This document shows positions 1,803 to 54,616 of a stretch of DNA of 64,000 nt, in pieces. Source of the DNA: Pontederia crassipes (Eukaryota > Streptophyta > Magnoliopsida > Commelinales > Pontederiaceae); the NCBI GenBank assembly GCA_030549335.1, contig CM060188.1, forward strand, positions 8,742,001 through 8,806,000. The letters are read 5' to 3'. How positions within the stretch are numbered: the stretch's first letter is position 1; the number at the start of each line of letters is the position of its first letter. The translations under genes were made by a program, and so were the position numbers. Under the pieces are notes generated by a model. It was not told the origin of the DNA. It made no database searches and saw only the letters and a program-made list of their open reading frames with translations.

Positions 1803-3452
1803 GTTATTTTATTCTCGGATATCCTTACTCCTCTTCCTGGGATGAACATACCATTTGACATTGTCAAGGGGAAAGGGCCAATAATAGACAATCCCATAAA
1901 AACAGCAGCAGATGTAGATCAAGTGAGAGAATTTGTTCCTGAGGAATCAGTCCCATATGTTGGTGAGGCATTGACCACATTGAGGGAAGAGGTATGTTGC
2001 CTTCTTTTTTATGTACGAAGGAAAGAGATAATAGAATATTGAAGATATTTTGATAGGTTCTTTTGTCATTTACTTGTCTATTCATATTTAAACACATCCA
2101 AAAATCAGTCAACCAAATGATATAAATATATGCTAATGAAGTGCATATCATTTCCAAGGCAATGCCATTTGGGATATATTCATCTTCTGGAGTTGAAAAG
2201 CAGGACCCTTGGATATAAGTTTGAATGTGAAAATCCTTGATCTTGAACTGATTTTAATAACTAGCTCATGAACTCCTAGTGAGGCCATAAAGAAACTCCT
2301 AGTAAGTATTTCAAAAAAGTATGAGAACCTTTTTATAGAGTACAGACAAACTTTGTTAAAGGTTTGGGAATGGAGAACTGAAGAGGTGATTGGCTCTGAT
2401 GTTGGTTCGCCTTGGTTATTTCTCATTTGCATAAATGCTTGATTCTTTTGCAACTTTCAAGTACAATAAATTTTCCTTTTGAGCATGCTTACGAAGTTTT
2501 CAAAGTTATAGTATTGTTAACTCTTGCTGTCTATTATTTTTTTCCCTCAGACTTTCCTTGTGCATATCTCCTCTGTATCAACATTTTTCAGGTTAAAAAT
2601 GAGGCAGCTGTTCTTGGATTTGTTGGCGCTCCTTTCACCCTGGCATCTTATGTGGTTGAAGGTGGTTCTTCAAAGCACTTCTCAAAAATAAAGAAGCTAG
2701 CATTTTCTCAACCAGAGGTAAATGGTAATCATGCTTCGGTAAAAATTTTCATTGATTTTCACCTTTTTCACTGGTAATTTGTGAATTATGTGTTCTAGCA
2801 CACAGTAATTTTATGAAATCCTGAGTGATTGATTATACCTTTTTCGATGTGCATTAGGACCAAGCAATAATAATATGCTTTGTTTCATGTGGTAATGCAA
2901 TTTGTCCATGAAGTTAATTATATATATCTCATGCAGGTTCTACATTCTCTACTAAAGAAATTCTCTAGTTCTATGGCAAGATACGTTAAGTACCAAGCTG
3001 ATAATGGAGCGCAAGCCGTTCAGATCTTCGATTCATGGGCAACGGAACTAAGTCCAGTGGATTTTGAGGAGTTTAGTTTACCTTATCTGAAGCATATTGT
3101 GGACTCTGTTAAGGAGACACATCCTGATCTACCTTTGATCCTTTATGCAAGTGGATCTGGAGGGTTGCTTGAGAGGCTCTCGGGGGCAGGCGTTGATGTT
3201 GTGAGCTTGGACTGGACAGTGGACATGGCTGAAGGCCGAAGACGATTGGGATCTGACATTGCTGTTCAGGGAAATGTGGATCCCGGTGTTCTTTTTGGAT
3301 CAAAAGAGTTCATTACCAAGCGAATTCATGATACTGTGAGAAAAGCAGGCACCAGTAAGCATATACTGAACCTTGGTCATGGGATTGTCGTTGGAACTCC
3401 GGAGGAAAATGTTGCTCACTTCTTTGAAGTTGCAAAATCTATCAGATACTAA
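1803..3452 (+). CDS. UROD: Uroporphyrinogen decarboxylase, last three exons (5' part absent)
   Basis: UROD removes four carboxyl groups from uroporphyrinogen III to give coproporphyrinogen III, in the plastid branch of heme and chlorophyll synthesis. Three exons join in frame: 1803-1991, 2592-2717 and 2937-3452 (stop at 3450-3452). All have GT-AG borders and phase 0. They give 276 residues, from [13 protein letters not shown] to [11 protein letters not shown]. Conserved marks are FSDIL (active-site Asp), ASYVVEGG (Tyr), IFDSW (Ser), [26 protein letters not shown] and NLGHGI (His). The family also needs an upstream segment with RQAGRY, whose arginines bind substrate, plus a transit peptide. 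Neither is found between the phosphorylase exon and 1803. The rest looks under constraint, with no stop or shift. Either the first exons lie off the left edge across a very long intron, or this is a recent 5'-truncated copy. A candidate poly(A) signal AATAAA lies near 3757. Confidence 0.85.
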
Positions 3453-13948: not shown

Positions 13949-15286
13949 ATGGATCCAGAAAAGAAAGGGAGTGTTTTGATGAATAAGTATGAAGTTGGAA
14001 GGTTGCTGGGGAAAGGAACTTTTGCCAAGGTTTATTATGCTAGGAATACAGTGACTTCTCAGAGTGTTGCCATAAAGGTGATTGACAAAGAGAAGGTCTT
14101 GAAGGTTGGGCTTATTGATCAGGTCAAGCGTGAGATTTCAGTGATGAGATTGGCGAAGCACCCTAATGTTGTGGAACTTTATGAGGTCATGGCAACGAAA
14201 ACCAAGATATATTTCATCCTTGAATGTATGAAAGGTGGGGAGTTGTTTAATAAGGTTGCTAAAGGAAAACTTAGAGAAGATGCTGCTCGGAAATATTTTC
14301 AACAGCTGATAAGCGCTGTTGACTACTGCCATAGTCGAGGTGTTTATCACCGTGATTTGAAACCTGAAAATCTTCTGATAGATGAGAATGGAAATTTGAA
14401 GGTTTCAGATTTTGGCTTGAGCGCCCTGGCTGAGTCAAAGAGACAGGATGGCTTACTTCACACAACTTGTGGTACTCCAGCTTATGTTGCTCCTGAAGTT
14501 ATCAACAGAAAGGGATATGATGGAGCCAAAGCCGACATCTGGTCTTGTGGAGTGATCTTGTTTGTTTTGATGGCTGGTCATCTCCCCTTTCATGATCCAA
14601 ATCTCATGGAGATGTATAGAAAGATCGGAAAAGCAGATTTCAAATGTCCAGGTTGGTTCCCGTCGGATGTTAGAAGGTTACTTCTTCGCATTCTTGATCC
14701 AAACCCTGGTACTAGAATCTCTATTGCAAAGATAATGGAACATCCTTGGTTTAAGAAAGGGCTTGGTGACAGACTACCCGTCAGCAAGATAGAAACAGAG
14801 GAGCCTAGTTCAGTAGAATTCGAAGAATCTAGTTCTTCGGGGAGCAACGTGATTGAGCGAAAGCAACAGATGGACAAGCTTGCCAACTTAAATGCTTTTG
14901 ACATCATTTCACTCTCTGCAGGATTTGATCTTTCAGGCTTGTTCGAAGAGACTGACTACAAGAAAGAAGCAAGGTTCACATCCAGACAACCAGCTTCGAT
15001 CATCATCTCAAAGTTGGAGGATATTGCCAAGTGCTCAAAGTTAAAAGTGAAGAAGAAGGATCATGGAGTGTTGAAAATGGATGGAACCAAGGTTGGCAGG
15101 AAGGGTGTTCTGGGCATCAGCGCGGAGATCTTCGAAGTTACTCCATCATTTCATCTTGTGGAAATAAGGCAGACTAATGGAGATACTATAGAGTACCAGA
15201 AATTGTGGAAAGAAGATATTAGACCAGCCCTTAAAGACATAGTGTGGAGGTGGCAGGGAGAAAAAGAGCAGCAGCAACAGCACTGA
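13949..15286 (+). CDS. CIPK: CBL-interacting protein kinase (SnRK3), intronless coding region
   Basis: A 445-residue serine/threonine kinase of the calcium-sensor pathway. A CBL protein binds its NAF motif and relieves autoinhibition, and targets are typically ion transporters at the plasma membrane or tonoplast. Visible features: Gly-rich loop GKGTFAKVY (21-29), Lys43, [10 protein letters not shown] with Asp136, DFG at 154-156, [10 protein letters not shown], then junction residues and NAF motif [19 protein letters not shown] (NAF at 315-317). A PPI-type C-terminal domain follows, with KLKVKKKD and [20 protein letters not shown]. Length and order are normal for the family. The ATG at 13949 is chosen because [20 protein letters not shown] matches typical family N-termini. 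A uniform moderate GC content and the intact frame indicate a working gene. It resembles the intronless CIPK2/10-type clade, but the member number cannot be assigned by eye. Confidence 0.97.
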
Positions 15287-29663: not shown

Positions 29664-31013
29664 TTATGAAGAAGTTGGTCGGTTCGATTCAAGGCAAGTC
29701 ACCAGCTGAAGCGACCGGCCGGTCTCATTCGCCACCGGGCTCAACTTCTCCTTCCAGAATCTAACCACCTCCGCATCCGTCGCCGCCTCCTTCTGCACCT
29801 GCACCTCCACCATCGCCACACCATCCGTGACGCCGTACGCCTCGATCCTCACCTCCAAATTACCGTTCTGTCCTTCGACGGCGGCGCTGAACCCGTTCGT
29901 GTTCTCTTTCCTCCGCACGGCGAGCCCCTCTGTCCTTCCCACCTCCTCCACCCGTTCCAGCAACGCCTCGACGGTTCCGGCCGAGGCGAACGTCTCGCGG
30001 TCCAGACCGGGTTCGAACAGACCGGACAGGTCCAGTCCGGAGGAGAAGGAAATGATGTCGAATGCGTTGAGACGGGCCGTGCGCTCCTGCAACTTGGCGT
30101 CGTAGACGTGGTCTTCGCGAGGGCGCATCGCAGCCGCCCATTCGCCCGCGTCGAACCCGCCCTTCTTGAACCACGGGTCCCGGATGATTTCGTCGACGGC
30201 GATCCGTGTCTCAGGGTCGGGGTCGAGCATTCGGTCCAGGAGCCTCCGGAGCACCGGCGATGTCCACCGGGGGCATCGGAACTGGCCGCGGTAGATCTTT
30301 CGGTACATGGTCACCAGGTTCGGGTCGTTGAATGGGAGGTAGCCGGCGTTGAGCACGAAGAGGATGACGCCGGCCGACCATATGTCCACCTTCCGCCCGT
30401 CGTACCCCTTCTTCGACAGCATCTCCGGTGCGACGTAAGCCGGCGTCCCGCAGAGCGTATGGAGGAGGAGGTCGTCACCGCCTGCGGACGGGGAGCGGAT
30501 AGCGGAGAGGCCGAAGTCGGAGATCTTTAGGTCGCCGGCTTCGTCGATGAGGAGGTTCTCCGGCTTGAGGTCGCGGTGGAAGACGCCACGGGAATGGGAG
30601 AATGAGACGGCCGAGATCAGCTGCCGGAAGAGGCGGCGGGACTGGTCCTCCGGGAGTCGTCCGGCGGCGACGAGACGGGAGAATAGCTCCCCGCCCTTGG
30701 CGAGCTCCAGCACGAGGTAGACCTTAGACCGCGAGGCGAGGACCTCGTGCAGCCGGAGGATATGAGGGTGCCGCAGTCGCCGGAGGGCGGAGATCTCCCG
30801 GAGCACAGGGATGGTGCCGTCTTCCCGAGCGGCGGGGGAGGGCGACGCGGAGCGCAAGTGGGGCTTGGGGAAGACCTTGATGGCGAAGCTGTGGCCAGTC
30901 GAGAGGCGGCGAGCGAGGTACACCCTGGCGGATGCGCCGCGGCCGAGGAGGTGCCCCAGCGCATACTTGCCGAAGATAACCCTCTCCGACGACGAGGACT
31001 CGCCGGACGCCAT
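29664..31013 (-). CDS. CIPK: CBL-interacting protein kinase (SnRK3), GC-rich intronless gene
   Basis: A 449-residue kinase. Visible features: Gly-rich loop GRGASARVY (24-32), Lys46, [10 protein letters not shown] with Asp148, DFG at 166-168, [10 protein letters not shown], then NAF motif [19 protein letters not shown] (NAF at 316-318) and a PPI-type C-terminal domain ending near VVRFWKEKL. The role is as for other CIPKs: a CBL sensor bound at NAF activates phosphorylation of transporters or other targets. A 12-residue insert (around SASPSPAAREDG) precedes the alpha-C Glu, and the loop lacks the usual Phe (GKGTFAKVY), as I recall for the CIPK4/7-like clade. The gene is strongly GC-rich, with third positions almost all G or C. 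It lies in AT-rich DNA, in contrast to the other CIPK here. The frame is intact, with start MASGESSSSERV. Confidence 0.95.
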   Translation of the reverse strand: MASGESSSSERVIFGKYALGHLLGRGASARVYLARRLSTGHSFAIKVFPKPHLRSASPSPAAREDGTIPVLREISALRRLRHPHILRLHEVLASRSKVYLVLELAKGGELFSRLVAAGRLPEDQSRRLFRQLISAVSFSHSRGVFHRDLKPENLLIDEAGDLKISDFGLSAIRSPSAGGDDLLLHTLCGTPAYVAPEMLSKKGYDGRKVDIWSAGVILFVLNAGYLPFNDPNLVTMYRKIYRGQFRCPRWTSPVLRRLLDRMLDPDPETRIAVDEIIRDPWFKKGGFDAGEWAAAMRPREDHVYDAKLQERTARLNAFDIISFSSGLDLSGLFEPGLDRETFASAGTVEALLERVEEVGRTEGLAVRRKENTNGFSAAVEGQNGNLEVRIEAYGVTDGVAMVEVQVQKEAATDAEVVRFWKEKLSPVANETGRSLQLVTCLESNRPTSS

Positions 31014-42985: not shown

Positions 42986-43537
42986 TATAGACAGAAGGTC
43001 AAAAGATCAAAAATCAGCTTAGAAATCAAAATAATACATCCTTTTTTTCTGTTCTTTTCTGGTACAAAGGCATTTAAATTGCAATAAATATGTGTTTTTT
43101 TGTTATCTTATTTAGCAATGCTCGACAGACCTGATTTACTTCTGAAATCAATTTATGGCTTCAACATGTATCCCTAAAATTATGCACCCCAACTTTCACT
43201 CAATATCTCAACGGTCCCCAACTTCAATTTGTAATTGGAACGTCCCCCAACTTTGATTTTCTTGCACGCTTCGTCCACTTGACTTGCGATAATGGATTTC
43301 TCAGTTTCCTCGCTTACGTGGCCGCCGCATGCACCATTTCTCTTTCATCCTCGTCATTTAAGAAAGTAATAAAATAATATAAATATACAATAAAATAATA
43401 TTAAAAATAGAAATAAGGGTTTAATGCTTGTCCTCCCTAATTGTAAAGGGAGGACTGTCCTGCCTATCTTATTTGCCATTCAATGCACAATCAACGTCAT
43501 GAAAAAAATTGTGATTCTGAGGCGCGGTTCGAACAGA

Positions 43538-44721
43538 GTTGTCACGACCGGACCGGCCGGTCGGACCGGTTGGACCGGTCGACAGCACGACCCAATGTAA
43601 GGCCTAAAACCGGGGAGGACATTGGACCGGTCAAAACCGGTCAAAAACCAGATAAAACTGGATCATACCGCATTTTCATTGGACTGGCCGGTTCAAAAAA
43701 AAAGCCAAAATGGCAAAACCCAAAACACAACGACTACAGTGACATTACTACAGCCGCTACAGTACACAAAAAAACCCCAAACCGCTAAACCTTGCGAACA
43801 GTCCGACGAGGCGGCGACCCCTTTGACGACCAGACAACGTGATGCGCACGCCTCCGGCGACGGCGAACAATCACCCGTTGGCGGCCGTCAACAATCTCTT
43901 GCGGCCAACCAAGAGGTTCAATTTCTTTTCCTCTGGTTGTATTTCCATTCGATTTCGCTTCGTTCCTTCTCATCTTCGTCGACGCTCTCCAACGATCTCC
44001 GCAGTCCCCAGACTCCGTTGCTTCAGAAGTCCGCAACTCGCAAGCGCCACGCGCAAGCGTTAGCACGCAGCCTCACAGGGTCCGCCTCCGACGCGGGCGG
44101 CAATGAGGCTCTGGGGAGGTCTTTGCGCCGACGCTGCAGGCTGACCTCACGGCTGCCGGCAATGTTGTCACGACCAGACGTTGCAGGCTGACCTCACGGC
44201 TTCGCGACGGTGCCGTTGAGAACCTCCCGCGTTTGATGCCCGCAACCTCGCAGGGCCGATGCCATTGTGCCTCGCAAGGCCTGAGCGAGCAAGGGATCCG
44301 CCGATCCGGGAGGTTTCTATGCCCGTGCGCGGGCTCTGTCCGCTGCTCAAGCTCATAGAGTCACAGCAGCACTCTCGTCCTCCTGCTGCAGTGCTACCCC
44401 TTGCCAACGCTCTGCACCAACAAGAATCTCCCCCGATTGTGGCCTAGAGATAGTGCAATGTTAATTAAATTGGCCAAGACAGAGAGTTATTGAATTGTTA
44501 CTAATGTGATGTGATTACGAAATGTGATTAATATTGTAAAATGTGATTGTTATATTGATGTTATTTCATTACAATCTTTTAAGTTTTAACTTATTGTGTC
44601 TATTTTTTTTGGTACATATCTAAATTTGATGGATTATATTAAATAATAATATTTTATTACTAACCGGTCTGACCTAAAACGGAGTCTTTTCTGGTTCGTT
44701 GTCCGGTCCGGTCGTGACAAC
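43538..44721. mobile_element. DNA element nested in element C, 1184 bp
   Basis: Its ends are inverted copies of GTTGTCACGACCGGACCGG (43538-43556 and 44703-44721). Multiple GGACCGGTC-type phrases lie inside the left end. The middle (43790-44450) is GC-rich and gene-like but without a recognised domain. A target duplication is not clear. GGTTCGAAC and GGTTCAAGT beside the two ends match only partly. The superfamily is unassigned. Confidence 0.65.
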
Positions 44722-44913
44722 ATTGGGTTCAAGTGCAAAAGCCACAAGCGAGGGCGATTCGAAGACATGATGCAGCTCCGTGAGCAGTTCGCCATGTTCC
44801 GGCGACGAGGAGGATCATGGGGCTCGTGACGAGGAAGCTAGGACAGCAACGCAAGGCGACACGGGCAGCAGCGCTCCGCGGTAGCAGTCCACAGCGACAT
44901 CAACGCTTGGCGG

Positions 44914-45346
44914 CTGCTCCTGCACCAATAGTTCTTGCTTCTTCTCCATGTCAGACATCTGGAAATAGGATGGCGCCAGAAACATCAACGACATTGTGAA
45001 TGGATCGGCTCCTATTGACGCAGTGATGCCGTCGTTGCTCGGCGATGCCGGTAGCGCCAACATCGGCTGCGCTGTGGGAGGCCGACAAAGAGTGACGTTG
45101 CTTGCGCCCCCGCACCCCCGTGCCCCTACGCCACGACGGCTACTGCCGAAGCCTGCCCCTGCATGTCCATGTCGTCCAACAGCATCATATCGAAACCCCC
45201 GATGCCTTCTCCAAATGCCTCCCATTTCTGCGTCGTCGATTGATCCGACGGATGAGGCGCCAGCTCCCAGTTGGACGAGGCACCTTCTCCGAGCAATTCC
45301 ATATGCAACAATTCCATCTGCGGGGGACTATCGCGATGCTTCGTTC
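44914..45346 (-). pseudogene. Captured C-terminal piece of an AP180/ANTH clathrin-assembly gene
   Basis: On the minus strand, NWELAPHPSDQSTTQKWEAF and GGFDMMLLDDMDMQGQ are followed in another frame by RPPTAQPMLALPASPSND and then DPFTMSLMFLAPSYFQMSDM, EKKQELLVQEQ. Plant clathrin-assembly proteins of the ANTH family have the same order near their C-terminus: WE-LVE, GGFD-LLLDSMY, PMLALPAPP, then DPFAASLAVPPPAYVQM-DMEKKQ-LL-EQ. These proteins recruit clathrin and AP2 at the plasma membrane. The ANTH domain itself is absent and the two halves are in different frames, so it is a decayed capture and not a working gene. It lies entirely inside element C, outside its nested insertion. Confidence 0.75.
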
Positions 45347-45744
45347 GCACAAGAAAAATTGCTCGACCCGGCAGCAGTGATCGGCGGTGGCAGCACTTGG
45401 GAGCAGCAACGATCAGTGGCAGCAATGATCAGCAGCAGCAGCGATCGACGACAGCAGCGCTCGGCGGCGGCAGCAATCAGCGATCGACAGTAGCAGTTAC
45501 CGATTGATTGGCGGTAGCAATGACCGATCGGCGATAGCATGTTTGCTAGGGAGATTTCGAACTGAACTGGATTCGCGATGCAGTAGATTAGCCATCCATT
45601 TTGCATAAGACGGCTGATAGGTAGGCAGGACGGTCCTCCCTTTACAAATAGGGAGGACAAACATTAAACCCTAAAAATAAAGATCACCACCGCCGCTTGT
45701 CGGAGTCGGCGAGCTCGTCACCCCCTCTCTCTCGTGTGCGCCCG

Positions 45745-51997: not shown

Positions 51998-54616
51998 TCA
52001 CTTCGAGTTCAAAGATTGCATCATCTCTTTATTCTTCTTGTGTTGCTTTGACAAGAGAAGTGAAAGACTGGCCAAACGCAGCTTCGTCCTCTTAGAAAAA
52101 GTTTCCTTGCGAGTGTTTCCATCCTTAGAATGCGGAGGAGATGAAATTCCACCCTTCGTGCTAAGAATCTGGCGAAGGCAGACAGGTTTTCTGCTGCCTT
52201 TTCCGCACAAGTTCACGCTGTATTCCTCAGGATCCATCAATCTCATGCTTATCATTTGTCCAATAGATAAGGGTGGATGTGGGTCTAAACAAATGTTCGG
52301 TGATTCTGTTGTCAAAGATGAACTATTCAGATCAAGTACATGAGAACTCCTATGGTGGGTTGAGTAGCTTTTTACTTCAGTGGAGTTCAGAGTATTGCGT
52401 CTTTTTTTACCGTTCTCAATTCTCAATTTCCGTAAAGCCTCTTCGACCACCAACTTCCCTCTATTTGCAGTGTCTGCTCTCTCTAATGCATTTTCAAGAG
52501 CCTTCTTCCATATTTTAGCTACTGCATTTGCTTCCTCCACCTTCGTTAATAACTCTGCCTTGGATTGATTTGCTTCATCTACTTCTTCCATGACAGATCT
52601 AATTTTGTTTATTGAGGTTACCTCAGCCTCTCGTGCTTTGCTCATTAGAGTTGTGTACTCTTTCATTGACAGAATCACTTCAGAGCTATTCTTAGGATCT
52701 AAACCTGAGCTATCACTTTCTGTTAAAGCTTTGATCCCAAGGAGAGCAACAGATTCTACAGCTCTAGCAGATGCCTCCATTTTCTTGGCTGCCACTATCC
52801 GGATTTCAGCTATCTTCATGTTTGCCTTTGTTTGTTCAATCTCAGACATCAGCCTAGAAACTTCAATTTTGGCAGCTTCTGACACCTTTTTCAAGTTCTC
52901 TATCTCATGACTCCTTTGCATGATTTCCTGTGAAATGCACAAGGAATCTTCAAACCTTTTATTCTCAAGATATTGGATTTTCTGATGCTTTTGTGTCGTC
53001 TGATTAAGATCTTCCAGTAGGGACGTAACTACAGCAGAATCAGATGCCAGCTTCTCCCGGATTTTCTCAAGCAGATATTTCTTCTCCTGTATTTCACTTT
53101 TGAACAATTCAATTGATGCTTTAATATCAGTGTAATTCCTTGTGGCCCTGCTCAGGTTCACCTTAGCCTGCTTCAGTTCCATTATGGCCAATCCTGTAGA
53201 TAGATTACGCTCTCTACCTAGGCCATCCGCATCAAGTTTCTTATGATGCGCAGGAGCATCTTCTTGGAAGGCAACCATGGGGTGCACTTTTATGTTAGCT
53301 GAAACAACCGACATTTTAACAGCCTTCACGCTCTCTTCTTGCAAGCTCAATGTCAGGTCGTTCACAGTCTTTTTGGTAGTCTCCAATTCATTTAATACAT
53401 TAAGCGTTTCTCTTTCTTTCATAACAAGATCTTTCTTCAATTGTGCAGTATGTTCCTTCACTTTCACAAGTTCAGCATCTCGGGGACAATGTCGTTTCTG
53501 AAAGCATTACTTTAGAAGGATAAGAATGTGGAATTAAATAACTATAAACAGAAACATTAGATGTGACGTATATGGATTTAACTGACTACAGCTTAATTCC
53601 AGTACGCTGCAAGAGACAAGATGGACACGGACGAGGACACACACTTAAATAGTATAGTACTACAGAAAGAAATAAGCAGGAATGGCCAAAAAAGAAATAA
53701 AACTTTGCTGCTGTCGCATCTTAAGACGCACTTTAGAAGTAAGAAACCTTAACTATCATTAAGCATGCAACCAAACTTAGATTTGTTTTTGGCGACTAAG
53801 GTGACCAGATGATTACAGGATAGTATGTATAAATATTTACAGAACCAGGGGAACAAATATGGTATATAACATAAACTCAAAGTCACAAGTATATACTTCT
53901 TCCTAGAGGAACAATAATATGTAATTGAGAACACCAAAAAGAAATTACAGTGGGACACTTTTACATGACTACTTAAATTGAGCAGCAAACTATAATAACT
54001 TAAATTACGCAGCTTAAAATAACTATAGTAACTTAAATTAAGCAGCTTCAACCAAAAGGTTTTACATCAATTCAAAATATGAGTTTCGCCAATATCGTCG
54101 GTTTCCTGAACAGCGTTTACATTAATCAATGTCTAATGAAACAATTTGCAAATACAATTGCCAAAATATTTGATCTTAGGAATATAAAACCCATTACATG
54201 TGAACACATTGTGCTCTGCTCAGCAGTTATTTGCTATCGTTGTCAAGTAATGAATCTAAAAAAGCAAGATTTAAGAAAAAAGGAATCGGATTCATAGGAC
54301 GTACCTTCACATAGACAATACACGAATCATAAAATTCGAAAACTTTGTGGTAAATACCAAACTGATGCACTGTAAAATGCAATAATTTTGGAAAAAAAAA
54401 AGCTTCTCCATAATTCACTAACAAAAAGGAGCGCGCAACACTCACTTCGGCGTTGAATAGTTGCTTCAACTGCAAGTTCCACTCAGCACTCCCGCCGAAG
54501 TGATCCACGGCCTCCTTCACGGACGCGAACGGCACGGACGTGTCGATCTCTGACCTAACCGCCTGTTCCTCCTCCGCCTGCACGCCGCTGGAAACGGAGA
54601 CCGCGCCGCCCTCCAT
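51998..54616 (-). CDS. WEB-family coiled-coil protein (DUF827 type)
   Basis: Two exons on the minus strand, 54616-54446 and 53497-51998 (donor GTGAGT, acceptor TGCTTTCAG), give 556 residues. The N-terminus has the family mark IDTSVPFASVKEAVDHFGGS followed by AEWNLQLKQLF. From about residue 60 to 420 there is almost continuous heptad-rich coiled coil (LKKDLVMKERETLNVLNELE, MELKQAKVNLSRATRNY, KIWKKALENALERAD). The C-terminal 120 residues are basic and probably disordered. WEB1 and PMI2 of this family act in chloroplast photorelocation through actin. This shorter protein is nearer the At2g38370-like branch, whose role is not established. The start is chosen by the family motif. The intron is about 0.95 kb and contains no gene. 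Confidence 0.9.

Follow-up and report, generated by a model that had tools for sequence, protein, structure and literature searches.

An apparently old, multicopy Pack-MULE with a captured ANTH exon fragment in Pontederia crassipes

An element of 2255 bp with inverted ends lies within a 64,000-nucleotide stretch of Pontederia crassipes DNA (the window, to which positions refer unless a locus is named). It raises the questions of whether it carries part of a host gene, where that part came from, and whether it was acquired once or several times. The first-pass annotation had proposed a Pack-MULE that contains part of a clathrin-assembly (AP180/ANTH) gene. The reading that we favor, with a probability of about 0.9, is an old multicopy Pack-MULE, in which a single ANTH capture was followed by amplification, silencing and decay, and later by a hAT-like insertion into the window copy. 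The multicopy spread, the shared capture scar, the nested element and the decay contrast are additions of the present analysis.

Borders, ends and nested insertion of the window element

The proposed span of the element, 43417-45671, was retained. The inverted arms (43416-43469 and 45619-45672) extend over 54 nt and are 93% complementary. Since their outermost base pair belongs to the flanks, the inverted ends (TIRs) are 53 bp long inside the element, and not 55 bp as first annotated. The near-perfect 9-bp duplication was found as described, with 8/9 positions equal between the flanks. A 26-bp terminal motif, allowing ≤3 mismatches, occurred at two sites in the window, both of them these ends, and in 0/100 shuffles of the window. 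TIRs are present at both ends of the window copy and also in the sister copies on contigs C9, C7 and C11 and in a second copy on C6 (C6b). The palindrome within each end (43430-43455 and 45633-45658) is intact or nearly so in these same four copies. Apart from the captured gene fragment, the window element is made up as follows, with strands given where assigned:

43408..43416: left target-site duplication, TAGAAATAA (flank comparison)
43417..45671: Pack-MULE (non-autonomous, MULE-like), nested insertion included (inverted ends, 9-bp duplication 8/9, sister copies)
43417..43469, plus strand: left TIR with internal palindrome GTCCTCCC...GGGAGGAC (arm comparison, motif scan)
43526..43533: left 8-bp duplication of the nested element, GGTTCGAA (comparison with the C7 sister copy)
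43534..44725: nested hAT-like non-autonomous element, later insertion, with ends CAGAGTTGTCACGACCGG and CAATGTTGTCACGACCGG (duplications of other copies; absence from the C9 and C7 sisters)
44726..44733: right 8-bp duplication of the nested element, GGTTCAAG (comparison with the C7 sister copy)
44734..44913: interior segment without assigned origin (genome search, local comparison)
45301..45618: interior with CAGCAG/GATCG-rich repeats, origin unassigned (repeat listing, genome search)
45619..45671, minus strand: right TIR with the same palindrome (arm comparison, motif scan)
45672..45680: right target-site duplication, TAAAAATAA (flank comparison)

About half of the element, 1192 of its 2255 bp, is an unrelated nested element, whose ends are inverted relative to each other. 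The C7 sister copy has a single GGTTCGAG and no insert at the same place, and thus represents the empty site; the C9 sister copy also lacks the nested element. The empty site in a sister copy places the nested insertion after that of the Pack-MULE. Four other copies of the nested family were compared: the duplication is CTTAATAT in L013 (8/8) and ATGTGGAC/ACGTGGAC in L016 (7/8), and could not be placed in L014 and L015. Most of the 58 rows returned by a genome search with the whole element belong to this nested family, and many end at or beside position 44725. Judged by its structure, an 8-bp duplication and short inverted ends, the nested element can be called hAT-like. Tag1-type hAT elements have CA...TG ends and 8-bp duplications, and the nested element has the same; however, it has no visible transposase, and the likeness is one of structure only. 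Its interior is GC-rich, and an additional internal copy of its terminal motif occurs at 44160-44177.

Two open reading frames of ≥150 aa lie within 43417-45671. One (44996-45493) is antisense to the ANTH piece; the other (43622-44191) lies in the nested element and had no significant Pfam match. Because of this, and because the interior that is left over has no room for a transposase gene, the element is considered non-autonomous. A genome search with 44734-44913 matched only the window and the C7 and C9 sister copies (three candidates scored), and local comparison showed parts of this segment in the C6b, C11 and C22 copies as well. A second captured gene was considered for this segment, for which the search returned sister copies only. 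The genome matches to 45301-45618 were at places that also bear element ends (manual reading; 36/36 candidates scored).

The captured ANTH fragment, its donor and the sister copies

The window lies on contig C6 of a 1.13-Gb assembly, which also contains the donor genes. A genome search with the element aligned 44914-45201 over 289 bp with two ANTH genes, one on C12 and one on C11, each at 82% (E 5e-75), and with an older paralogue on C7 at 73%; a search with the donor exon as query added another older paralogue, on C8, as the fourth donor-type gene. The matched places are last exons that contain open frames of 400-403 aa, which have a Pfam ANTH match (PF07651) near their start, upstream of the captured part. 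With the C12 gene (locus L010) as reference, the captured blocks are:

44914..45201, minus strand: main block of the captured last-exon fragment, donor L010:3558-3846 (82% over 289 bp, E 5e-75)
45201..45248, minus strand: second block, donor L010:3442-3489 (75% over 48 bp; junction present in sister copies)
45257..45300, minus strand: displaced block, out of donor order, donor L010:3468-3511 (82% over 44 bp; junction present in sister copies)

The ANTH match thus covers 44914-45300, slightly less than the 44880-45360 that had been proposed for it, and stops inside the element rather than running on through its ends, a course that would have counted against capture. The donor alignment that the first-pass annotation had called for placed the borders at approximately L010:3435-3882, past the ANTH domain match, before the stop and within one exon. 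As the capture lies wholly within the last exon, no intron was included. The donor interval is 66% GC and the window 35%; an excerpt of a study of rice MULEs (PMC4858842) describes GC-rich captures, the same trend as seen here.

The minus-strand peptide blocks listed by the first-pass annotation are present, with NWELA, KWEAF and GGFDMMLLD in one frame and PMLALPA, ADPF and SYFQMSDMEKKQ in a different frame. Their supposedly correct order was borne out in part: a small NWELA piece precedes KWEAF, the reverse of the donor. With its blocks split over two frames and an internal stop, the window copy now has no intact ANTH reading frame. The proposal that an element with MULE-type ends captured an ANTH fragment is supported on these grounds: the assembly contains donors, the match keeps to the interior, and sister copies exist at other loci, two of them with perfect 9-bp duplications.

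The donor-type genes form two close pairs, C12/C11 (L010, L011) and C7/C8 (L012, L043). The C12 and C11 genes are 94% identical over 2.7 kb, extending past the last exon, and those on C7 and C8 differ by 1.3% over the captured part, so that these two rows amount to nearly one observation. Such pairing points to a large duplication in the genome, of fairly recent date.

Genome search and local comparison revealed sister copies on C9, C7, C11, C12/C22 and C6. Four of them were delimited as follows:

C9 copy: L009:4628-5646, 1019 bp, duplication TTAAACATA (9/9)
C7 copy: L025:258-1266, 1009 bp, duplication TTTCATTTA (9/9)
C11 copy: L026:304-1472, 1169 bp, no duplication seen
C6b copy: L028:235-3988, duplication AATAAAATA / AATAAAAAA (8/9)

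The left end of the C12 and C22 copies was not found in the local comparison, and the two are counted as one insertion because of their common flanks. This gives at least seven fragment-bearing copies at six insertion sites (window, C9, C7, C11, C6b and C12/C22). The 21 rows returned with the donor exon comprised the four donor-type genes, nine rows in the seven element copies, and eight other ANTH-like rows; the sorting was manual, and the last eight were assigned by similarity only. The right end region matched 31 places (manual count), and a second search added one, for a wider end family of 32; among these places, the ANTH query found only the seven copies. The donor interval starts at L010:3442-3446 in the window, C7, C11, C22, C12 and C6b copies and at 3453 in C9, and ends at L010:3881-3882 in C22, C12 and C6b; the parts of the donor that were kept differ between copies. 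The C6b copy is split by ≈2.6 kb of other sequence (L028:760-3385) between two ANTH blocks.

The donor has its blocks in the order KWEAF, NWELA, GGFD. The elements have a short NWELA copy ahead of the KWEAF piece, and in the C11, C22, C12 and C6b copies a second, normally placed NWELA stretch follows it; this normal stretch has been lost from the window, C9 and C7 copies. When the window junction was used as query, a single alignment ran across it in the C7, C9, C6b, C22 and C12 copies. The displaced piece is mostly deleted in C11, where a short part is left. The four donor-type genes, in contrast, gave one unbroken alignment without the displaced junction.

A maximum-likelihood tree of the fragment, with misplaced columns masked, united all seven element rows in one group (SH-aLRT 92.6, UFBoot 92), which was sister to the C11 and C12 genes (93.5/95) and apart from those on C7 and C8. 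In unmasked alignments, the window, C9 and C7 copies have their left part on the wrong donor block; the masked analyses drop columns at reference positions <128 for these three, and the conclusions were unchanged (element group 87.3/86 in the unmasked tree). The branching order between the two element groups, window/C9/C7 and C11/C22/C6b, was poorly supported. A closer relationship to either the C11 or the C12 gene was considered, and no clear preference emerged at diagnostic sites, of which the window copy shares 6 with each and has 1 other state. Since the element group is sister to C11 and C12 together and takes no clear side between them, the capture is best placed, on these alignments, between the split from C7/C8 and the duplication that gave C11 and C12.

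We call the element a MULE on the basis of its ends and duplication, as the search for a transposase associated with this end family found none. The assembly is rich in MULE transposase domains, with 2217 candidates; among the 150 of these that were scored, none was associated with these ends, and the one nearest to an end site (32 sites considered) lay 110 kb away. Seven other end-family loci and the C6b insert were considered as a source of transposase, and none was seen when their open frames were read by eye. Pack-MULEs have target-site duplications of 9-11 bp, according to an excerpt of PMC3310237. Here, the C9 and C7 copies have a perfect duplication (9/9), the window and C6b copies have one that agrees at 8/9 positions, and none was seen in C11; the internal host-gene fragment has its parent elsewhere in the genome.

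Three alternatives bear on this reading. That the ANTH resemblance arose by chance or low complexity has a vanishingly small probability: Pfam was silent on two peptide pieces from the window and a PDB sequence search on one, with nothing significant in either, but the match to ANTH last exons at E 5e-75 over 289 bp refutes it, and the silence of Pfam is explained by the ANTH match in the donor genes, which ends before the captured part. It is also very improbable that several related elements captured the same exon independently. The varying donor parts kept among the copies would fit such a history; however, sister copies share both the out-of-order junction and the non-ANTH interior with the window copy, and the tree unites all seven rows. 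The shared out-of-order piece weakens the case for independent captures and, in agreement with the tree, leads us to one capture followed by amplification. Assignment to a different superfamily whose duplications are 8-9 bp long, of which Merlin-like elements are an example, is improbable as well. The search for a transposase with these ends was negative and the assignment is structural; yet the 53-bp ends, the two perfect 9-bp duplications (in C9 and C7) and the fragment capture match the description of MULEs in the excerpt of PMC3310237, and the abundance of MULE transposase domains in the assembly points the same way.

Decay of the copies

Summed over the seven element copies, C-to-T and G-to-A changes amounted to 92/451 at CHG and 30/536 at CHH sites. 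The C7 and C8 genes, compared with that on C12, had 4/176 at CHG, 10/216 at CHH and 28/212 at CG; the C11 gene had too few changes against C12 to tell (CG 1/108, CHG 1/90, CHH 2/114). With one copy per insertion (six copies) and only sites where the four genes agree, the counts were CG 77/363, CHG 71/322 and CHH 11/356. The CHG difference between elements and genes (92/416 vs. 4/176, p 2e-11; at third positions alone 17/84 vs. 2/46, p 0.018; Fisher) is indicative only, since the genes are unpolarised, the site sets differ and the rows are related. The C11 copy alone shows little CHG contrast (CHG 6/56, CHH 6/71). The copies other than that in the window carry indels and, except for C6b, stops. 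Change at both CG and CHG sites in the elements, compared to CG only in the genes, is likely the mark of a silenced transposon, and the substitution pattern points to methylation as the probable cause of decay. In rice, the methylation of MULE interiors rises with age (excerpt of PMC4858842).

The codon positions add a complication. In the C11, C22 and C6b copies, changes at positions 1, 2 and 3 numbered 38/322, 37/322 and 49/227 (odds ratio 0.48, p 0.0004), and outside CG/CHG sites 7/182, 9/207 and 16/110 (p 0.0003). The window, C9 and C7 copies had no third-position excess (42/241, 37/248, 28/172; p 1.0); with all six copies pooled, some was left (p 0.007; outside CG/CHG sites p 0.024). Copies that decayed neutrally from the moment of capture would not be expected to show such an excess. 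The donor might instead have been a paralogue that is now lost or unsampled, or the fragment might have been under coding constraint for a time before it decayed; either is unlikely, though less so than the alternatives considered above. The changes common to at least two of C11, C22 and C6b, which number 4, 5 and 10 at positions 1, 2 and 3, agree with such a history, as does the excess itself. However, only three changes, two of them at third positions, are common to both element groups, singletons are flat over codon positions (42/563, 33/570, 22/399), and the window, C9 and C7 copies lack the excess. With so few changes common to both groups, a lost paralogue, a spell of constraint and noise may each account for the excess. 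It is rather improbable that the amplified ANTH fragments, with tail motifs such as DPF, were expressed for a time, either as a short tail peptide, to which the third-position excess of C11, C22 and C6b would correspond, or as small RNAs tuning the ANTH genes.

Proposed history and related systems

The observations at these loci comprise the donor, the borders, the shared junction, the separate insertions, the nesting order and the loss of frame. To these, we infer a repair mechanism, a transposase class and methylation, and propose the following history for a multicopy Pack-MULE with one capture. A single non-autonomous MULE-like element would have copied ≈450 bp of last-exon sequence from the ANTH (AP180/CALM-type) gene that gave rise to the present C11 and C12 genes. 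The copying probably involved a switch of template while the interior of the element was being repaired, and this would also have left the short displaced piece. A transposase encoded elsewhere, presumably of the MULE class, would then have spread this composite to six or more sites, where the copies were presumably silenced and decayed, for the most part through C-to-T changes at CG and CHG sites that were methylated. The window copy would have been hit by the hAT-like element later.

Published explanations for captures of this kind include template switching during repair, and one third of Pack-MULEs, which have been studied particularly in rice, are multicopy (excerpt of PMC8277862). Over 3,000 Pack-MULEs with fragments of more than 1,000 genes are reported for rice in an excerpt of PMC13317346. 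The present element resembles the multicopy Pack-MULEs of rice, tomato and other plants, such as the tomato PM-ZIBP family (excerpt of PMC3310237), in its inverted ends, 9-bp duplications, size of ≈1 kb without nested insertions, unlinked host-gene fragment and several copies, but differs in its ANTH donor, the sequence of its ends, its strong decay and the nested hAT-like element in the window copy. It also fits the Pack-TIRs formed by gap filling or fork stalling with template switching, as described in the excerpt of PMC8277862, in having an unlinked gene, a complex junction and a later multicopy state; those, however, are from animals, whereas the mechanism proposed here is read from a decayed junction only. 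The small part of the literature on AP180, ANTH and clathrin assembly that was examined does not mention Pack-MULEs, and we do not claim that the donor is unreported.

The case is ordinary in kind and presents no new phenomenon; it stands out for its donor and for how completely its history can be traced. It is a small, well-resolved host-gene capture with donors, borders, capture scar, separate insertions and a nested element, in which the decay pattern distinguishes change of the transposon type (CHG) from that of the gene type (CG only) within the same exon, and it provides a tidy calibration case for the annotation of captured fragments.

Host genes surround the element in the window. The frames at 13949-15286 (+), 29664-31013 (−), 51998-53467 (−) and 2880-3452 (+) include two long ones with protein kinase and NAF domains (CIPK-like), one that matches WEMBL (weak chloroplast movement) and one that matches uroporphyrinogen decarboxylase (Pfam).
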